From positions 6,467,501-6,531,500 of the forward strand of contig NZ_CP029008.1 in the NCBI RefSeq assembly GCF_024585165.1: a DNA stretch of 64,000 nucleotides, given 5' to 3'. This document shows, piece after piece, positions 54,393 to 64,000 of the stretch. The position numbers and the translations under genes were made by a program. Position 1 is the stretch's first letter. Every line of letters begins with the position of its first letter. The notes below the pieces were generated by a model. The model was not told the origin of the DNA. It did not search any database and saw only the letters and a list, made by a program, of their open reading frames with translations. The stretch comes from Bradyrhizobium sp. WBOS07. GTDB lineage: Bacteria; Pseudomonadota; Alphaproteobacteria; Rhizobiales; Xanthobacteraceae.

Positions 54393-54429
54393 TTGACGGG
54401 ACCTAATCATTTGTACATTAGTACAAATG
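54393..54429 (+). promoter_or_regulatory. Promoter with palindromic operator before the extradiol dioxygenase
   Basis: A -35 TTGACG (54393-54398) is followed by TACATT (54414-54419) as a possible -10. Over the -10 lies a perfect inverted repeat: CATTTGTAC (54408-54416) and GTACAAATG (54421-54429), separated by four bases. This is the size and position of an operator for a dimeric repressor. The gene starts 100 bases further on. Confidence 0.6.
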
Positions 54430-54528
54430 AACCGGCGGCCTCGGTGCCGCCTTCGGGTGGGTCAGCCTGTTGCGATCCTGCACCCGAACGCGCGATCCGG
54501 CGGATCGCCAGCCTTGCTGGAGGAAGAC

Positions 54529-55494
54529 ATGCAGCCCGAACCGATCCTCGATCTTGCTCATCTCGGCCATATGGAGCTGCTGACGCCCAAGCCCGATGAG
54601 AGCCTGAAATTCTTCGTCGACGTCATGGGCATGACCGTCAGCGGCCAAAAGGGCGAGTCGGTTTATTTGCGCGGCTGGGACGATTACGAACGCTACTCGC
54701 TGAAGCTGACGGCGTCGAAAACCTCGGGCATGGAGCACATGGCGCTGCGCGCGCGCAGCCAGCAGGCGCTGGAGCGCCGCGTCGCCGCGCTGAAGGGATC
54801 CGGCTTCGACATCGGCTGGATCGATGGCGACATGGGGCAGGGCCCGACCTTCCGTTGCCGCGATCCCGACGGCCACATCGTCGAGCTCTATTACGAGACC
54901 GAGTGGTACCAGGCACCGCCGGAGCTGAAGCCCGCGCTGAAGAACCAGGCGCAGCGCTTTCCCGCGCGCGGCGTCAACGTGCGCCGGCTCGACCACCTCA
55001 ACTGCCTCGCCGTCGACATCAAGGCCAATCGCGAATTCTTCGAGAATTACCTCGGCTGCCGCCTCACGGAGCAGATCGTGCTCAACGACGGCCGGGAAGC
55101 GGCGATGTGGCTGACGATGTCGAACAAGAGCTACGATTTCGCCTATTCGCTCGACCATTCCGGCGTGCCGGGCCGTTTCCATCACGTCACCTACGCGCTC
55201 GACAGCCGCGAGGAGATTCTTCGCGCGGCCGACATTTTCCTCGAGAACGGCGTGCACATCGAGACCGGTCCGCACAAGCACGCGATCCAGCAGACCTTCT
55301 TCCTCTACGTCTACGAGCCCGGCGGCAACCGCGTCGAGGTCGCCAATGCCGGCGCGCGTCTCATCCTCGCGCCCGATTGGAAGCCGATCGTGTGGACCGA
55401 GGAGGAGCGCAAGAAAGGCCAGGCCTGGGGATTAAAGACGATCGAGTCCTTCCACACCCACGGCACCCCGCCGGTGGAGATGAAGCACGGTTAG
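54529..55494 (+). CDS. Extradiol (catechol 2,3-) dioxygenase, VOC type
   Basis: A 321-residue two-domain type I extradiol dioxygenase that would open a catechol ring with iron and oxygen. The non-catalytic N-domain begins DLAHLGHMELLTPKPDESLK. The C-domain carries the iron ligands: His in RLDHLNCLAVD (about residue 162), His in RFHHVTYALD (about 223) and Glu in GGNRVEVANAG (about 274). ATG 54529 has GGAGGA 4-5 bases upstream. A palindromic operator precedes it, so it is probably induced by its substrate. It stands alone, convergent to the hydroxylase genes. Confidence 0.9.
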   Translation: MQPEPILDLAHLGHMELLTPKPDESLKFFVDVMGMTVSGQKGESVYLRGWDDYERYSLKLTASKTSGMEHMALRARSQQALERRVAALKGSGFDIGWIDGDMGQGPTFRCRDPDGHIVELYYETEWYQAPPELKPALKNQAQRFPARGVNVRRLDHLNCLAVDIKANREFFENYLGCRLTEQIVLNDGREAAMWLTMSNKSYDFAYSLDHSGVPGRFHHVTYALDSREEILRAADIFLENGVHIETGPHKHAIQQTFFLYVYEPGGNRVEVANAGARLILAPDWKPIVWTEEERKKGQAWGLKTIESFHTHGTPPVEMKHG

Positions 55495-55706: not shown

Positions 55707-58700
55707 TCAGTGCGCCGACACGCGCACCCGTGCGATCGTATCGCGCACGCCCGGCCATGCCGGCTTGTCCGGTGCGAATTGCCTGCGCAGGAACGTGACG
55801 AGCTCCTCGATCTGCGCGTCGCTCATGCTGTTCCTGAATGCCGGCATGTAGCCGAGTTCGCTGGAGACCGGATCTGTGATCCCGTGCAGGATCACCTGGA
55901 CCAGATTGTCCGCCGTCGCGCTGTGCAGGTTGCTGTTCAGCGCGAGCGAGGGACGAGTGCCGAACAGCGGCAGGCCTCCGACCTCGTGGCACACTGCGCA
56001 GGCGCCCTGATAGAGCCGCGCGCCGGTGGAGGAGGCGACGGTGACTTGCGTTGTGCTCTCCAGCTTCGCGGCAAGAGCAGGTGCGTCGGCGGCGGCGCCG
56101 TTGAAGGAACCTAGATAGACCGCCATCGCGCGAATGTCCTGGTCGGGCAGGGCCTTGAGGTCCCTGACCACAGGCGCCATCGGGCCGGCGGCGACGCCGT
56201 GATAGCGTGAATGGCCGGTGCGCAAATAGGCGAACAGCTCGTCCTCGCTCCACGGGATCGGCGCGTGCGAGAGCGCGGTCAGCGCCGGCGCCTCCCAGCC
56301 TTCGGCGAAGCCGCCGGCGAGATAGGCATTGCGCTGCTCGGCGCCGAATGCGTTGCGCGGCGAATGGCAGCCGCTGCAATGGCCGAGACCTTCGACCAGA
56401 TAGGCACCGCGATTCCAGATTTCCGATTTTGTCGGATCGGGCTTGAACTCCGTTGCTTCATGGAACAACGCATTCCACCCCGCGAGCAGCGGACGGAGAT
56501 TGAACGGGAAGGCGAGCTGATTCGCCGGCGGCGTCGCGCGCACCGCAGGCTGCGCCATCAGATAGGCGTAGAGCGCCTGCATGTCCGCGTCGCTGGTCTT
56601 GGCGAAATGCGTGTAGGGGAAGGCCGGATAGAGCTGCCGCCCGTCGCGATGCAACCCGTCGCGCATCGCGCGCGCGAAGGCGGGATAGGACCATGCCCCG
56701 ATGCCGGTGTCGACATCGGGCGTGATGTTGGTGCTGTAGATCGTGCCGAACGGGGTCTCGAGCGCGCGGCCGCCGGCATTGAGCGCGCCTCGAAGCGTGG
56801 TGTGGCACTCCGCGCAATTGCCGAGCGCCGCGAGCTGCTCGCCGCGGGCGATCGTCGCTGCGGAATAAACCGACGCGTCGGGCCGTGCGATCGGCGCGAT
56901 CGCGCGCCCCGGCAGCAGCGCGGCGCCAATGCCGATCGCAGCCGTGCACACCGCCGCAATTGCTGCGAAGATGCCGGCGCGCTTGGCGAACGGATTATCC
57001 CAGATGCGAGAGGGAGGCGGAGCCGTGGGCGCGGGCAGGGGCACAGCCGATGTTTCACCATGCAACCCCTTCAAGATACGTTCCGGGGTAAACGGCGGCT
57101 CGCGAAAGCGCACGCCAGTGGCATCGAAGATCGCATTGGCAATGGCCGCCGCACTCGGCACCGAGGCCGACTCGCCGACGCCGAGCGGCGGCTGATCCTG
57201 CCGCGGCAGCATCAGGACGTCGATCTTGGGCACGTTGGGGAAGGGGATGATCGGATAGGCGCCCCATTCACGCGCCGCCACCGCGCCGCGTTCGAACGAG
57301 ACCTCTTCCATCAGCGCGCGGCTGGTGGACTGGATGACGTTGCCGTGGATCTGGTGGCGCACGCCGTCCGGGTTGATCATCAGGCCGGAATCCTGCCCGG
57401 CGACGACGCGGGTCACGCTGACGTCGCCGGTTGTCTTGTTCACGGCAACATCTGTCACCCAGGCCGACCATGCCGCGCCGTAGCCGGGAAACTTGCTGTG
57501 GACATAGAGGGCATAGGCAAAGCCGCGCCCATGCACGATTTCGCCGTCCTTGTCCTGCCTCACAGGGCGTGGCGTCCAGCCAGCGCGCTCCGCCACGGCA
57601 TTGACGAGATCGATGGCGCGCTGGTCTTTCAGGTAACGCAGGCGATATTCGATCGGGTCGATTCCGGCCTCGGTGGCGGCCTCGTCGATGTAGGATTCGT
57701 GCGCAAAGGTGTTCGGCAGCGCGGAGACGCCGCGAAACCAGGACGCGCGCACGATCGGCGGCGTGTCGTGGGCGACGACGCGCATGTGCTCGTAGTCATA
57801 GGGCGGGATCGCGGTGCGGTCGCCCATCTGGAGCACGGCTGGTTCCGGTGAGATGCGACCGGTCAGCAGCAACGCCAGCGTCGGCGCGGCGTTCGAGGGA
57901 TAGCGCGTGGCGAGATCGTAACCGGCGATGCCGCCGTCGGCATCGAGCCCGCCATTGACGTCGATGAGCTGCGCGGTGCCTTTGGGCTCCCAGGTGTGCT
58001 CCTGCTCGCGCGACAGCTGCACGCGCACGGGACGGCCGACCGCGCGCGACAGCAGCAGCGCGTCGGCGGTGACGTCGTCGGCGCAGTTGCGGCCGTAGCA
58101 GCCCGCGGCCTCCAGGCGGATGACCTCGATCTCGCTCTCGGGCCGCTCGATCAGGAGCGCAAGATCGCTGCGCAGCAGGTGCGGGTTCTGCGTGCCGGAC
58201 CACACCCTGATATTGCCGTCCTGATAGTCCGCGACTGCGCAGGAGGGGCCGATCGAGGCGTGCATCTGATACGGCCAGACATAAGTGCGCTGCATCGGCT
58301 TGGCCGCGCCGGATATCGCCGCGCCAACATCGCCCTTGTCGATCAGGGTGCGCGGGGTCGATGGATTGGCGCGAAGTGCGGTCTCGAGGTCGGAAAGATC
58401 GGTGAGGGTGGGCGTCGGCTTCCAGCTCAGCTTGAGCTGCTCCGCCGCCCGGATCGCATTCTCCTCGCGCTCGGCGACGACACCGACGAAATCGCCGATG
58501 CGCACCACGGCCACGAGACCGGGAATGTCGCGGACAGATGCTTCATCGACCGCGATCAGGCTGGTGCCGACAAAGGGTCCCGCATCTACGCCGGCATAGG
58601 GCGGTCGCACCACGCGGCCGTGCAGCATGCCGGGCAGGCGGATGTCGTGGACGAAGGTCAACTCGCCCGTGGCCTTGGCCGGCAGGTCGACGCGCGGGAC

Positions 58701-59222
58701 GGACTGACCGACGATCGCGTAGTCGCCGACGGGTTTGACCGCGACATCTTCGGCAAGCTCGAGTCGGATCTGTTCGCCGCCGATCAGTTCGCCATAGCTG
58801 ACGCTGCGGTTGTCATGCCCGCGCACCAGGCCGTCCTCGATCCTGAGATCGGCCTCCGGCAGCTCCAGGCGCTCCGCTGCGCGCGCGATCAGGAAGCCTC
58901 TTGCCTGCGCTGCGGCCTTGCGCAGCGGCACGGCGGTGATCTGGATGGTCTCGCTCGCGATGGTCGCGCCCTGGTTCGGCACCAGGGCCGTGTCGCCGAG
59001 CACGATCACGACGCGAGCGAAGGACACATCCAGCTCTTCGGCGACGATTTGACCGAGTGCGGTGCGAATGCCGGTGCCGAGATCGACATGGCCGTTATAG
59101 GCCGTGACCGATCCGTCGGCGGTAATGCGGACGAAGGTCTCGGACGTCATCTCGTCCACGGTGCGGACGACGACAAGCGATCCCGGTGACCGGTCGGTTC
59201 CGTTCGAAACAGAGGAGGCCAT
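55707..59222 (-). CDS. Molybdenum hydroxylase large subunit fused to a three-heme cytochrome c (NicB-like)
   Basis: An 1171-residue fusion. Residues about 1-740 are the molybdopterin-binding subunit of a xanthine-oxidase-type hydroxylase, ending in the catalytic-Glu loop PPLGVGESASVPSAAAIANA. A membrane helix follows near residue 745 (GIFAAIAAVCTAAIGIGA), then a cytochrome c tail with three CXXCH sites (CAECH about 805, CSGCH about 947, CAVCH about 1074). This layout matches nicotinate hydroxylase NicB, which passes electrons to an external chain. The ATG lies on a TGATG overlap with the 2Fe-2S subunit. Nicotinate is the best guess; other N-heterocycles are possible. Confidence 0.88.
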   Translation of the reverse strand: MASSVSNGTDRSPGSLVVVRTVDEMTSETFVRITADGSVTAYNGHVDLGTGIRTALGQIVAEELDVSFARVVIVLGDTALVPNQGATIASETIQITAVPLRKAAAQARGFLIARAAERLELPEADLRIEDGLVRGHDNRSVSYGELIGGEQIRLELAEDVAVKPVGDYAIVGQSVPRVDLPAKATGELTFVHDIRLPGMLHGRVVRPPYAGVDAGPFVGTSLIAVDEASVRDIPGLVAVVRIGDFVGVVAEREENAIRAAEQLKLSWKPTPTLTDLSDLETALRANPSTPRTLIDKGDVGAAISGAAKPMQRTYVWPYQMHASIGPSCAVADYQDGNIRVWSGTQNPHLLRSDLALLIERPESEIEVIRLEAAGCYGRNCADDVTADALLLSRAVGRPVRVQLSREQEHTWEPKGTAQLIDVNGGLDADGGIAGYDLATRYPSNAAPTLALLLTGRISPEPAVLQMGDRTAIPPYDYEHMRVVAHDTPPIVRASWFRGVSALPNTFAHESYIDEAATEAGIDPIEYRLRYLKDQRAIDLVNAVAERAGWTPRPVRQDKDGEIVHGRGFAYALYVHSKFPGYGAAWSAWVTDVAVNKTTGDVSVTRVVAGQDSGLMINPDGVRHQIHGNVIQSTSRALMEEVSFERGAVAAREWGAYPIIPFPNVPKIDVLMLPRQDQPPLGVGESASVPSAAAIANAIFDATGVRFREPPFTPERILKGLHGETSAVPLPAPTAPPPSRIWDNPFAKRAGIFAAIAAVCTAAIGIGAALLPGRAIAPIARPDASVYSAATIARGEQLAALGNCAECHTTLRGALNAGGRALETPFGTIYSTNITPDVDTGIGAWSYPAFARAMRDGLHRDGRQLYPAFPYTHFAKTSDADMQALYAYLMAQPAVRATPPANQLAFPFNLRPLLAGWNALFHEATEFKPDPTKSEIWNRGAYLVEGLGHCSGCHSPRNAFGAEQRNAYLAGGFAEGWEAPALTALSHAPIPWSEDELFAYLRTGHSRYHGVAAGPMAPVVRDLKALPDQDIRAMAVYLGSFNGAAADAPALAAKLESTTQVTVASSTGARLYQGACAVCHEVGGLPLFGTRPSLALNSNLHSATADNLVQVILHGITDPVSSELGYMPAFRNSMSDAQIEELVTFLRRQFAPDKPAWPGVRDTIARVRVSAH

Positions 59223-59704
59223 CAGTCAGCCGCCTCGGTGAGCTGGCCCGACGCCCGCATCACGGCGCGCAGGATCTCGACATGGGTGCCGCAGCGGCAG
59301 AGATTGTAGCGCAACGCCGCCAACGCCTCCTGTTCGGTCGGCCGCGGGTTGATCGCGAGCAACGCCTTGGTGGTCATGATCATGCCGTTGAGGCAATAGC
59401 CGCATTGCGCGGCCTGCTCGTCGATGAAGGCCTGCTGCACGGCGTCAGGCTTGTCGCGCGTGCCGAGCCCTTCGAGCGTCACGATGTCGCGGCCAGCGCA
59501 GCCGCTGACGGGAATCACGCAGGCGCGTGCTGCAGCTCCGTCGATCAGGACAGTGCAGGTGCCGCATTCGCCGAGACCACAACCATATTTCGGGCCGTTG
59601 AGCGCGAGATCGTTGCGCAGCACGTAGAGCAGCGGCGTCTCCGGCGCCGCATCGATCTCGTGGATCCTGCCGTTCACGGTGAGGCGGATCGGTGTCTGCG
59701 TCAT
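59222..59704 (-). CDS. Molybdenum hydroxylase 2Fe-2S subunit (NicA-like)
   Basis: A 160-residue iron-sulfur subunit with two [2Fe-2S] clusters. The N-terminal plant-type ferredoxin domain has CGLGECGTC with a further Cys in ARACVIP; the helical C-domain has CGYCLNGM and CRCGTH. It relays electrons from the molybdenum site of the next gene to its hemes. The start is ATG 59704 (MTQTPIRLTVNG); a longer upstream frame runs through the control region. First gene of the hydroxylase operon. Confidence 0.93.
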   Translation of the reverse strand: MTQTPIRLTVNGRIHEIDAAPETPLLYVLRNDLALNGPKYGCGLGECGTCTVLIDGAAARACVIPVSGCAGRDIVTLEGLGTRDKPDAVQQAFIDEQAAQCGYCLNGMIMTTKALLAINPRPTEQEALAALRYNLCRCGTHVEILRAVMRASGQLTEAAD

Positions 59705-59747
59705 CCTAGGTCCCAAGCCCGCATCAAATTCGACATCGCGACGATAC

Positions 59748-59919
59748 CGTTTGTACACAAACGTGCAAGCCATGCATGCCGCAGTGCAACGCAGCTGCCT
59801 TGTTTGTGGACAGAGCGGATGGGCAAATGAGGCTTTATGCGGCAGCTGCATCTTTTGCACTGCACCGCCGCTTGACAGTCGGAGGCGACCGCGCGCAACA
59901 TCGTTCGTATACGAATGAT
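59748..59919. promoter_or_regulatory. Divergent control region with two palindromic operator candidates
   Basis: Site A, CGTTTGT-AC-ACAAACG (59748-59763), is a 7-2-7 inverted repeat just upstream of the hydroxylase start. Site B at 59900-59919 is a 20-base palindrome with one mismatched pair around the perfect core TTCGTATACGAA, 23 bases before the reductase start. Both fit a TNGT-AC-ACNA-like half-site pattern, as used by GntR/FadR-type regulators. A regulator gene is not in the window. Confidence 0.6.
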
Positions 59920-59942
59920 AACCCGCGCCAGCTGGCTCCGAC

Positions 59943-61400
59943 ATGGTGACTGAAACGACGAGCGCCGCCATCGACAAGATCCGCTGCGATGCGTGTCCGG
60001 TGATGTGCTACATCAAGCCGGGCGCGGCGGGTGCCTGCGACCGCTACGCCAACCACGACGGCAAGCTCGTCCGCGTCGATCCGCACGTGATCCTGGAGCG
60101 CACCGTCTCGCATGGCGGCAAGCTGGTTCCGTTCAGCCGCACCGAAGACTGGGACGGCAAGATCGTCCACGAGCCTTCCACTTTCGTGACGGCGATCGGT
60201 GCGGGCACCACCTATCCCGATTACAAGCCGGCGCCGTTCATCGTGTCCGCCGAGGTCGAAGGCGTCGATATGGTGACCGTGGTCACCGAGGGCATTTTCT
60301 CTTATTGCGGCGTCAAGGTGAAGATCGACACCGACCGCTATCTCGGTCCGGAGACCGCGACCGTGCGCGCGCAGGGTGAGGCGGTCGGCCACGTCACCAC
60401 CAGCGAATACGGCTCGCAGATGCTGTCGCTCGGCGGCGTGCATCACCTGACGGGCGGCTCCAAGAAGGAGGGCCGCGTCACCTGCGATACGCTGATGGAC
60501 CTCGCCAATTGCAGGCCGGTCGAGCTCACCATCGACGGCGGCGCCACGGTGGTGGTGCAGGCCGGCCAGCCGCCGATCGTGAACGGCGTCAGGGAAGAGC
60601 GCATGCGCGTCGGCTGCGGCTCGGCGACGATCGGCATGTTCGCCAAGCAATGGCATGGCAAGGTTGACGAGGTTGTCGTGGTCGACGACCACATCACCGG
60701 CGTGCTCAGCGAACACCAGGCCGGCAAGCTGCTCGACATCGCCGACACCGGCATCAAGATGAAGGGCCGGCGCTCGACGCCGGGCCGCTATTTTCAGGTC
60801 GCCGATCCCGGCACGGGGTGGGGCGGCACCAACATTTCCGATCCGCTAGCGATCCTCGGGCCATTCGATGCCAGGGAAGCCCGCCCCGGTCTGACAATGC
60901 TGATGGTCTCCACGACCGGTGAGCACTCGTCCTACTACGTGCTCGACGAGGCCTTGAAGCCGGTCGAGACCGAGATGCCTGCCGACCTGAAGTTCTCGGT
61001 CGAGCGCATCCAGGAGAACTGCGAGCCGGCGCTGTGCACCGTGCTGTTCATGGCCGGGGCCGGAGGCTCCTTGCGCGCCGGCGTCACCGACAATCCGGTG
61101 CGGCTGACGCGCTCGGTGAAGGATGCGCTGACGCGCGTCACCAGCGGCGGTGCGCCGGTCTATGTCTGGCCCGGCGGCGGCATCACCTACATGGTCGATG
61201 TGACGCAGATGCCGGCGGGGGCTTTCGGGTACGTTCCGACCCCGGCGCTGGTCGCGCCGATCGAGTTCACGATGAAGCTGTCGGACTATGCCGCGCTCGG
61301 CGGCCACATGGATTACGTGAAGCCGCTGTCCGAGGTGCAGAACGGCGACGATGTCCGCCAGCTGCCCTGGGTGAACCCGATTCCGGGGCCGCGGGCATGA
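59943..61400 (+). CDS. 6-hydroxynicotinate reductase-like iron-sulfur protein
   Basis: A 485-residue protein that I match to 6-hydroxynicotinate reductase, which in Eubacterium barkeri reduces 6-hydroxynicotinate to the tetrahydro form. The N-terminus has four Cys (CDACPVMC and GACDRYAN), fit for an iron-sulfur cluster. Other features are GIFSYCGVKVKIDTD, GWGGTNISDPLAI and GAGGSLRAGVTDNPVRLT. It lies divergent from the hydroxylase genes with two operators between, and overlaps the next gene (ATGA). The assignment comes from remembered annotation plus context, so the exact substrate is open. Confidence 0.75.
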   Translation: MVTETTSAAIDKIRCDACPVMCYIKPGAAGACDRYANHDGKLVRVDPHVILERTVSHGGKLVPFSRTEDWDGKIVHEPSTFVTAIGAGTTYPDYKPAPFIVSAEVEGVDMVTVVTEGIFSYCGVKVKIDTDRYLGPETATVRAQGEAVGHVTTSEYGSQMLSLGGVHHLTGGSKKEGRVTCDTLMDLANCRPVELTIDGGATVVVQAGQPPIVNGVREERMRVGCGSATIGMFAKQWHGKVDEVVVVDDHITGVLSEHQAGKLLDIADTGIKMKGRRSTPGRYFQVADPGTGWGGTNISDPLAILGPFDAREARPGLTMLMVSTTGEHSSYYVLDEALKPVETEMPADLKFSVERIQENCEPALCTVLFMAGAGGSLRAGVTDNPVRLTRSVKDALTRVTSGGAPVYVWPGGGITYMVDVTQMPAGAFGYVPTPALVAPIEFTMKLSDYAALGGHMDYVKPLSEVQNGDDVRQLPWVNPIPGPRA

Positions 61401-62293
61401 CCAGGCTCCCGCAAATCGCATTGCTGTCTGATGGCCGGCGGCTGCATTTGCAGGACGGACCGATCGACCTGATCATCGAGGCGAGGGGGCGTGCCGACGC
61501 GGTGCGTGCGGCCTATGAGGCCGCGGCGCAGCGGTTCACCGGATTGCTCGACGAACTCTGCGCGGAGCTGCCGGCGCTACGCGCTGCGGCCGAGGCGCGG
61601 ACCTCGCTGGGCGGCGTGGTGGCGCGCCGGATGCACGCGGCTGTCGCGCCCTTTGCCGCCGATGGCTTCATCACGCCGATGGCCGCCGTTGCCGGCAGCG
61701 TGGCCGAGGAGATCCTCGGCGCCATGCTGGGCGCTGCGACGCTTGATCGGGCCTATGTCAATAATGGCGGCGACATCGCTCTGCATCTCGGGAGAGGCGA
61801 GCATTTTTCGATTGGCCTGATGGATCGCCCCGATGGTGACGGCGTGATGCGGACGATGCGGGTCGATGCGGATGACCAGGTCGGGGGCATTGCGACCAGC
61901 GGGCGTCACGGCCGGAGCTTTTCTCTCGGGATCGCCGATGCGGTGACGGTGCTGGCCGCGACGGCGTCGCAGGCCGATGCTGCGGCGACGGTCATCGCCA
62001 ATGCCGTCGATCTGCCCGGGCATCCTGCCATCGTCAGGCAACCGGCCTGCGAGCTTCAGCCCGACAGCGATCTCGGCGCGCGTCTTGTCACCCGGCATGT
62101 CGGTGAATTGTCACGGAGCGAGATCGCTGCCGCCCTCGAATCTGGCGCGGAATGTGCACGTCAATTGTTCGATCGCGGCTTGATCGAGGGTGCCGTGTTG
62201 CAGCTTTGTGGTGATATGCTTGTCATCGGACCTAAGGATATAAAAGAGCAACGAACGCGCCCGCGTCTGCCGAAAGACGCGGTCTGTGCCTGA
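61397..62293 (+). CDS. UPF0280 family protein (ApbE-like fold)
   Basis: A 298-residue UPF0280 protein. It has AYVNNGGDIALHLG near residue 116 and GIATSGRHGRSFSLGIADAV near residue 160, which parallel the GGDI and TSG motifs of ApbE flavin transferases. ApbE attaches FMN covalently to target proteins. Coupling to the reductase by a 4-base overlap suggests it may act on it, for example by flavinylation, but I found no clear ApbE target motif in the reductase. No membrane or lipoprotein signal. Confidence 0.8.
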   Translation: MTRLPQIALLSDGRRLHLQDGPIDLIIEARGRADAVRAAYEAAAQRFTGLLDELCAELPALRAAAEARTSLGGVVARRMHAAVAPFAADGFITPMAAVAGSVAEEILGAMLGAATLDRAYVNNGGDIALHLGRGEHFSIGLMDRPDGDGVMRTMRVDADDQVGGIATSGRHGRSFSLGIADAVTVLAATASQADAAATVIANAVDLPGHPAIVRQPACELQPDSDLGARLVTRHVGELSRSEIAAALESGAECARQLFDRGLIEGAVLQLCGDMLVIGPKDIKEQRTRPRLPKDAVCA

Positions 62294-62308
62294 CCAGGGA
62301 AGCGAAAC

Positions 62309-62893
62309 ATGAGCGCGATCATCCGCAAGATCGTCACCGTCGTCGAAGAGACGCAGATGGAAATGGGGCGCCAGGTCTCGCCGCCGACCCGGCGTGCCGC
62401 GGCGATCGCCGTGATCGAGAATCCCTTCGCTGGACAATATGTCGAGGATCTCTCGCCGCTGATCGCGATCGGCGAGGAGCTGGGCGAATTGCTGTCGAAG
62501 CGCGCGGTGGCTGCGCTCGGCATCGATGGCGCGAAGGCGCAGAGCTACGGCAAGGCCGCGGCCGTCGGCGAGAACGGCGAATTGGAACATGCCGCCGCGA
62601 TCCTGCATCCCAAGATGGGGGCGCCGGTGCGCAAGGTCCTGAGCAAGGGTGCGGCGCTGATCCCGTCGTCGAAGAAGCGCAGCGGGCCGGGCACGACGCT
62701 CGACATTCCGCTGGGGCACAAGGATGCGGCCTTCGTGCGCAGTCATTTCGACGGCATGGAGGTGCAGATCAACGATGCGCCGCGTGCCAACGAGATCATG
62801 GTCGCCGTCGCCGTCACCGACAGCGGCCGTCCGCTGCCGCGCGTCGGCGGGCTCACGGTCGCGGAGATCAAGGGCGAAGACGGTCTGAGATAG
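62309..62893 (+). CDS. DUF1185 ('amino acid synthesis') family protein
   Basis: A 194-residue soluble protein of the DUF1185 family. Recognisable parts are IRKIVTVVEETQMEMGR at the start, AIAVIENPFAGQYVEDLSPL, SYGKAAAVGENGELEHAAA and the end VTDSGRPLPRVGGLTVAEI. The family name 'amino acid synthesis' has no firm biochemical basis. In this operon it follows the UPF0280 gene by 15 bases and precedes an uptake binding protein, which suggests a role in the same heterocycle pathway. Ribosome site: AGGGAAGCG. Confidence 0.8.
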   Translation: MSAIIRKIVTVVEETQMEMGRQVSPPTRRAAAIAVIENPFAGQYVEDLSPLIAIGEELGELLSKRAVAALGIDGAKAQSYGKAAAVGENGELEHAAAILHPKMGAPVRKVLSKGAALIPSSKKRSGPGTTLDIPLGHKDAAFVRSHFDGMEVQINDAPRANEIMVAVAVTDSGRPLPRVGGLTVAEIKGEDGLR

Positions 62894-62977
62894 GGTTTGA
62901 GAACCGGGGAGGCGGGCACAGCCTTCCCGACAAGGTCACGCTGACGACGTCAAAGAGTTCAAAAACTGGAGGTTGGG

Positions 62978-64000
62978 ATGCGAGCGAGAAACATTTTTGT
63001 GGGAGCGGCCTTCGCGCTCCTGGCAGGCGGCATGGCTCATTCGGCCATGGCGCAGGACATCAAGATCGGCGAGATCAACAGCTATTCGCTGCTGCCGGCG
63101 TTCACCGAGCCCTATCGTAAGGGCTGGCAGCTCGCGGTCGAGGAGGTCAACGCAGCCGGCGGCATCAACGGCAAGAAGCTGGTCGTCGTCTCCAAGGATG
63201 ACGGCGGCAAGCCGGCGGACGCGCAGACCGCGGCCAACGAGCTGGTGTCGAGCGAGGGCGTTGCGATGCTTGCCGGCACGTTCCTCTCCAATATCGGCCT
63301 TGCCGTCAGCGACTTCGCCAACCAGAAGAAGGTGTTCTTCCTCGCGGCCGAGCCGCTGACGGACGCCATCACCTGGTCGAAGGGCAACAAATACACCTTC
63401 CGCCTGCGCCCCTCCAATTACATGCAGGCCGCGATGCTGGTGGAAGCCGCCAGCAAGCTGCCGGCCAAGCGCTGGGCGACGATCGCGCCGAACTATGAGT
63501 ACGGCCAGTCGGCGGTCGCGGTGTTCAAGAAGCTGATGTCGGAGAAGCGCCCGGACATCCAGTGGGTCGACGAGCAATGGCCGCCGCAAGGCAAGATCGA
63601 CGCAGGTCCCGTGGTGCAGGCCGTTGCCGCCGCCAACCCGGAAGCGATCCTCAACGTCACCTTCGGCGCCGATCTCGTCAAGCTCGTGCGTGAAGGCAAC
63701 ACCCGCGGCCTGTTCAAGGGACGCGAGGTCGTCTCGTTCCTGACCGGCGAGCCCGAATATCTCGATCCGCTCAAGGACGAGACGCCCGAGGGCTGGATCG
63801 TCACCGGCTATCCCTGGTACTCGATCAAGACGCCTGAGCACGACGCGTTCTTGAAGGCCTACCAGGCCAAGTACAACGATTATCCGCGCCTCGGCTCGAT
63901 CGTCGGCTACCAGACCATCAAGGCGGCAGCGGCAATCCTGACGAAGGCCGGCTCCACCGACCCGGAGAAGCTGATCGCGGCCGCGGAAGGGCTCTCCATG
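62978..64000 (+). CDS. Branched-chain-type ABC transporter substrate-binding protein (3' partial)
   Basis: The first 341 codons of a LivK-type periplasmic binding protein. The signal peptide ends near HSAMAQD (residue 26). The mature start DIKIGEINSYSLLPAFTEPY is the Peripla_BP_6 pattern, followed by QLAVEEVNAAGGINGKKLVV and PNYEYGQSAVAVFKKL. Such proteins in aromatic-acid clusters often bind the growth substrate rather than amino acids. The start ATG 62978 has GGAGG 5 bases upstream. The gene continues past the window end; permease and ATPase genes probably follow. Confidence 0.93.
   Translation, partial: MRARNIFVGAAFALLAGGMAHSAMAQDIKIGEINSYSLLPAFTEPYRKGWQLAVEEVNAAGGINGKKLVVVSKDDGGKPADAQTAANELVSSEGVAMLAGTFLSNIGLAVSDFANQKKVFFLAAEPLTDAITWSKGNKYTFRLRPSNYMQAAMLVEAASKLPAKRWATIAPNYEYGQSAVAVFKKLMSEKRPDIQWVDEQWPPQGKIDAGPVVQAVAAANPEAILNVTFGADLVKLVREGNTRGLFKGREVVSFLTGEPEYLDPLKDETPEGWIVTGYPWYSIKTPEHDAFLKAYQAKYNDYPRLGSIVGYQTIKAAAAILTKAGSTDPEKLIAAAEGLSM

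Follow-up and report, generated by a model that had tools for sequence, protein, structure and literature searches.

A UPF0280-family protein accompanies a 6-hydroxynicotinate reductase-like protein in a Bradyrhizobium gene cluster and may act as its helper

The sequence analysed here (the window) is a stretch of 64,000 nucleotides from Bradyrhizobium sp. WBOS07 (contig NZ_CP029008.1, positions 6,467,501 to 6,531,500), whose genome forms one contig of 6.73 Mb. Between positions 55707 and 64000, the genes of a molybdenum hydroxylase on the reverse strand diverge from a forward-strand series encoding a 6-hydroxynicotinate reductase-like protein (Hnr), a UPF0280 protein, a DUF1185 protein and a Liv-type binding protein (Table 1). 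A preliminary description of the window had named these genes, and each was found where it had been placed. The UPF0280 protein, a family that we equate with COG2122, matched NCBIfam model NF003322 with 427.8 bits (cut-off 290), and the DUF1185 protein matched PF06684 (E 3.9e-75, 251.6 bits, cut-off 27). The hnr stop and the UPF0280 start overlap as ATGA. The hydroxylase large subunit carries three CXXCH motifs, at residues 803, 949 and 1075; for the 2Fe-2S subunit, the ATG at 59704 is a chosen rather than a proven start, and the frame also allows longer versions.

Table 1 Genes of the cluster, in window coordinates.
Feature	Position	Strand	Description
Mo hydroxylase large subunit, NicB-like, with C-terminal cytochrome c region	55707..59222	-	1171 aa; Pfam MoCoBD_1/2 and Cytochrom_C
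Hydroxylase 2Fe-2S subunit, NicA-like	59222..59704	-	Fer2 and Fer2_2; 160 aa from ATG at 59704
Hnr (6-hydroxynicotinate reductase-like)	59943..61400	+	485 aa; 97% identical relative so named
UPF0280 (COG2122)	61397..62293	+	298 aa; NCBIfam NF003322
DUF1185/AA_synth, clade B paralogue	62309..62893	+	PF06684
Liv-type periplasmic binding protein	62978..64000, extends to 64180	+	PF13458, E 1e-63

Across 299 Pseudomonadota genomes, Hnr was detected in 21 (E<=1e-5) and UPF0280 in 21 (E<=1e-3), and the two sets were identical. These genomes belong to 8 of 153 genera, and in them the two genes lie on the same strand with their matched ends 0-531 bp apart. Within one genus, a single member carried both genes among members with neither. 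Fisher p-values for the co-occurrence, uncorrected for kinship, were 1e-32 by genome and 1.6e-13 by genus. Moreover, among 80 named loci, the nearest of at least 591 Hnr loci in a scan of species genomes, UPF0280 was located downstream within the flank in 77 and within 600 bp in 76; the remaining three had it elsewhere in the genome, about 8 kb off on a contig of equal length in one (L100) and on contigs of other length in two (L082, L102). Screening of 72,556 plasmids identified Hnr on 26 and UPF0280 on 27, with UPF0280 36-510 bp downstream on every one of the 26 Hnr plasmids. The distance matrices of the two proteins were also correlated (Mantel r 0.94, p 0.001, 75 loci). These patterns make it quite likely that UPF0280 is a functional partner of Hnr. 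Several points weigh against this conclusion: the genomes are related, so that the p-values overstate the association; the query for the 299 genomes was a single Hnr-type UPF0280, which may miss distant members; and the sample lay outside Eubacterium barkeri and other Bacillota. Archaeal loci were likewise outside it.

The 27th plasmid, from Hydrogenophaga sp. BPS33, contained UPF0280 in four places without a full Hnr. Two copies were read (L154:4032-15846), in a repeated IS1071-flanked unit together with a Rieske-domain protein, a VanB-type reductase and tripartite transporter binding proteins. Immediately upstream of both copies, the sequence weakly resembles the last part of Hnr (residues 434-459; 47% over 32 columns, E 0.001), so that hnr looks truncated by IS1071. 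Hnr-UPF0280 clusters with 73-77% identity to the window Hnr were also present in Acidobacteriota metagenome-assembled genomes (MAGs; L089, L092, L094, L101, L104, L106 and L111); as only one of 199 drawn Acidobacteriota genomes, the seed, carried Hnr, these clusters may reflect a recent transfer or an error in binning. In another genome (G016; L027, L028), Hnr was split into two overlapping pieces in different frames, by sequencing error or in a broken gene, with UPF0280 downstream. A 764-aa protein (P0063) spanning both Hnr and UPF0280 was considered as Rosetta-stone evidence and set aside, because its junction reads as a frameshift at the hnr end.

The preliminary description had held that UPF0280 has no assigned role, a view overtaken by the literature. 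Passages of PMC5764234 describe COG2122 as required for homocysteine synthesis in Desulfovibrio and as distantly related to ApbE, with D. vulgaris mutants rescued by methionine and covariation with DUF39 (r 0.98); there the molecular role is left open and persulfide formation is proposed. In an excerpt of PMC12068725, MA1715 of Methanosarcina is described as a sulfur trafficking protein. The structure closest to the window UPF0280 was a Desulfovibrio protein (2O34, E 5e-7). The name 'UPF0280' was unmatched in our literature search, and among papers sought as linking UPF0280, COG2122 or ApbE to nicotinate, only PMC3511419 was retrieved, without any of those three names.

None of the 299 Pseudomonadota genomes, the host genome included, contained DUF39 (PF01837), whereas 3 of 14 control genomes were positive; UPF0280 in these Pseudomonadota therefore cannot be serving DUF39. 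The 199 Acidobacteriota genomes comprised seven with DUF39 and, outside those seven, the one with Hnr (G305). UPF0280 was looked for at the DUF39 loci, and all seven proved to have a UPF0280 frame (profile E 1e-16 to 1e-22) as the neighbour of DUF39; in six it follows DUF39 immediately with the same orientation, and in one the two genes converge. The best NCBIfam model for these proteins was NF003324 (six) or NF003323 (one), two of them exceeding the cut-off, and they scored 63-87 bits against NF003322, the model of the window protein. Homology between Hnr and DUF39 was considered and is unsupported as far as the method sees (hhalign probability 0.1%); members of one family thus stand next to two enzymes without detected kinship, in the same position. 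The DUF39/NIL-ferredoxin/COG2122 homocysteine pathway, as outlined in parts of PMC5764234 and PMC12068725, likewise places a member of the UPF0280 family immediately next to the gene of its enzyme, but the window cluster differs in its partner, which is unrelated by profile, in its UPF0280 subfamily and in the absence of DUF39 from the 299 genomes. That UPF0280 recurs next to Hnr, and relatives of it next to a sulfur enzyme unrelated to Hnr, suggests a helper by which such enzymes are made ready; for a helper common to two unrelated reductive enzymes, the function is narrowed to a shared need, such as a cofactor.

Searches with the Hnr-like protein itself found nothing in Pfam or NCBIfam at E<=0.001, nor any PDB sequence up to E 10. 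We name it after close relatives that carry the name '6-hydroxynicotinate reductase', and following statements in PMC3511419, rather than from comparison with the E. barkeri sequence; proteins 95-97% identical to it bear Bradyrhizobium names. Two conserved motifs were evident, RVGCGSAT and CX2CX3CX9C, the latter fitting a 4Fe-4S cluster. S227 was serine in 56 of 56 aligned sequences. T229 was set aside as a certain flavin site and stays a candidate, alanine being present in 2 of the 56 aligned sequences and in 3 of 218 with the motif.

Beyond position 64000, the binding protein gene is followed by genes for a fused LivH-LivM permease, the ABC ATPases LivG and LivF, a MarR regulator, an unnamed protein, an amidohydrolase and a reductase (L005:11842-18801). 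The permease, ATPases and regulator were assigned by domain matches, and the unnamed protein had no Pfam match. The best PDB match of the amidohydrolase was the E. barkeri enamidase 2VUN (E 8.1e-110, query residues 12-394), the second-best structure being far weaker (E 1.4e-6). The preliminary description had predicted ring-opening and Liv permease genes past the window, and these findings bear it out. The reductase contains FAD- and NAD-binding domains; its closest model, NF008178 for ferredoxin-NADP reductase, scored below the cut-off (164.3 versus 390 bits). Two further copies, 62-63% identical, are present in the host genome. Of the frames listed for the 8.4 kb beyond the window, none was recognised as a later gene of the fermentation, with no genome-wide search made.

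With its hydroxylase genes, Hnr homologue and enamidase homologue, the locus very probably represents a reductive-type (tetrahydro-oxonicotinate) nicotinate catabolic cluster. We infer a route in which the Liv-type ABC transporter would import nicotinate and the NicAB-like enzyme would hydroxylate it to 6-hydroxynicotinate, electrons leaving via the cytochrome c region. Hnr would then reduce 6-hydroxynicotinate to 1,4,5,6-tetrahydro-6-oxonicotinate, and the enamidase would open this ring to 2-formylglutarate and ammonia, the known products of that enzyme. The ferredoxin-NADP-reductase-like protein, whose gene lies beside that of the enamidase, may supply Hnr with electrons.

The preliminary description had proposed a pathway joining an oxidative hydroxylase to a reductive enzyme. 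The genes support the arrangement, a cytochrome-type hydroxylase standing beside a ring reductase, but it is not new, having been described in 2012 (PMC3511419). According to portions of that paper, the reductive route, first found in E. barkeri, was later reported in the aerobe Azorhizobium, and the cluster is shown in Azorhizobium caulinodans, Bradyrhizobium japonicum USDA110, Rhodopseudomonas palustris HaA2 and strain SG-6C, three of these four hosts being Bradyrhizobiaceae, as is the window's genome. The published cluster comprises the first three pathway enzymes, an ABC transporter and a pair of conserved proteins of unknown function, which we take to correspond to UPF0280 and DUF1185; its gene content is like that of the window as the paper words it, with no difference known, the records themselves not having been compared (PMC3511419). 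The E. barkeri fermentation of nicotinate also shares Hnr with the window, the SG-6C protein being reportedly 42% identical, and it shares enamidase as well (2VUN, E 8e-110). Its hydroxylase, by contrast, is an FAD- and selenium-containing enzyme, that of the window being a cytochrome-c hydroxylase. The window cluster is one more member of the published kind and the pathway itself is already known and ordinary; the part worth experiment is the UPF0280-Hnr pairing set against the UPF0280-DUF39 pairing.

The hnr-UPF0280-DUF1185 core combines with differing hydroxylases, being of the cytochrome type in the window and of another build in Dongia (L103:1417-5948), where a 920-aa fused Fe-S/Mo protein is accompanied by a 588-aa protein with FAD domains whose first 300 residues have no Pfam family match. 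Transport genes likewise differ between clusters. In the window, a catechol 2,3-dioxygenase gene (54427-55494, forward strand; TIGR03211, 370 bits, cut-off 320.2) converges on the hydroxylase genes.

DUF1185, too, had been described as lacking an assigned role, which is out of date: a DUF1185-type protein is placed in a coumarin cluster and is homologous to TgnF of trigonelline breakdown in sections of PMC7913881. Passages of PMC2954203 on a DUF1185 structure give branched-chain transport genes as neighbours and contain no nicotinate link. The structures closest to the window protein were 2qtp and 3byq. DUF1185 was rejected as Hnr-specific, since it occurred in 41 of the 299 genomes, namely 20 of the 21 with Hnr and 21 of the 278 without; a further 14 Hnr genomes, accessed through MAG contigs that may be incomplete, included 3 without it. 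Many clusters carry two tandem copies, which fall into two well-separated clades (100/100). The host genome contains a second, long-branched DUF1185 copy at 4094936-4095457 (L129:8937-9458), whose neighbours include FAA-hydrolase, LigB-type dioxygenase, glyoxalase-fold and alcohol dehydrogenase genes. It is a fair guess that DUF1185 is an accessory to ring-cleavage chemistry; it is not tied to Hnr.

Overall, we consider it likely that the locus is a reductive nicotinate cluster in which UPF0280 serves as a dedicated partner of Hnr, probably as a maturation enzyme. UPF0280 would then perform no pathway step itself and would be required for a working Hnr. An improbable alternative is that it traffics sulfide or persulfide, as published passages propose for COG2122/MA1715 (PMC5764234, PMC12068725), and thereby supplies sulfur for the Fe-S cluster to which the conserved cysteines of Hnr could correspond. 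This role fits poorly with the lack of DUF39 in the 299 Pseudomonadota genomes, with the failure to detect a UPF0280 of this type in 278 of them when Fe-S proteins occur everywhere, with the absence of cysteine from the invariant and near-invariant positions of 66 Hnr-type UPF0280 sequences, and with the ApbE-like fold. That UPF0280 catalyses a step of nicotinate breakdown, for instance on the reduced ring, would account for its accompanying Hnr in Pseudomonadota as an NCBIfam subfamily of its own; we regard this as distinctly improbable, given that a relative lies beside an unrelated enzyme at 7 of 7 Acidobacteriota DUF39 loci, none of them in the Hnr genome, and that pocket residues are common to the Hnr-type and DUF39-type proteins. 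Least probable of all, hydroxylase and reductase might act on an N-heteroaromatic acid other than nicotinate: the substrate is assigned from sequence, and hydroxylase and transporter types differ between clusters. The known substrate of enamidase, however, is part of the reductive nicotinate route. A cluster of like content is also present in strain SG-6C, for which sections of PMC3511419 report measured nicotinate degradation with transient 6-hydroxynicotinate.

As the helper of Hnr, UPF0280 would most likely belong to the ApbE superfamily and act in the cytosol as a maturation enzyme, attaching or inserting flavin, with the sister subfamily performing the corresponding task for DUF39. Its fold is ApbE-like, with the T-fold architecture, and S168 and D194, present in 66 of 66 Hnr-type sequences, align with the TSG and AD of ApbE. 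Furthermore, 9 of the 21 Hnr genomes had no ApbE above the cut-off, which we count in its favour. Other observations weigh against it. The His-containing HIxDP loop of ApbE is missing from UPF0280 in the profile alignment, and the 66 sequences contain no invariant histidine, position 173 being arginine in 65. Pfam ApbE gave the window protein 22.4 bits, under its cut-off of 25.6; the PDB profile search that found 2O34 returned no ApbE entry up to E 10; and the sequence link detected by hhalign was thin (probability 80% over 97 columns). Passages of PMC5764234 indicate that the ApbE homology of COG2122 seems not to reach the flavin-binding region. On the target side, the canonical motif D-x-x-[ST]-G-A-[ST] was found in 0 of 221 distinct Hnr sequences, alanine replaces threonine in 3 of 218 at the candidate target GSAT, and the predicted Hnr model was poor (pLDDT 73). 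The E. barkeri Hnr is said to carry covalent flavin, according to a 2006 abstract, and a phrase search of the literature gave no match. The DUF39-linked proteins, moreover, belong to another NCBIfam subfamily, so that their function may differ. UPF0280 thus departs from the ApbE/Ftp/FmnB flavin transferases, which have the His loop, and Hnr lacks their canonical target motif. That UPF0280 attaches flavin to Hnr is accordingly possible but doubtful. Somewhat more speculative, and in our view unlikely, is that UPF0280/COG2122 forms a separate ApbE-superfamily branch whose targets for flavinylation or flavin loading are two unrelated enzymes of the cytosol, the pyridine-ring reductase Hnr and DUF39, which forms homocysteine, both thought to be ferredoxin-fed.

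If this were true, DUF39 would be a flavoprotein that has gone unrecognised, and what is called 'sulfide trafficking' by COG2122, in methanogens as in Desulfovibrio, would really be enzyme maturation, with a target site and a general base unlike those of ApbE. What may be of importance is that a family whose part in the sulfur metabolism of archaea and bacteria is disputed has a further partner unconnected with sulfur, one easily tested in an aerobic soil bacterium, so that the question of COG2122 function becomes directly testable.
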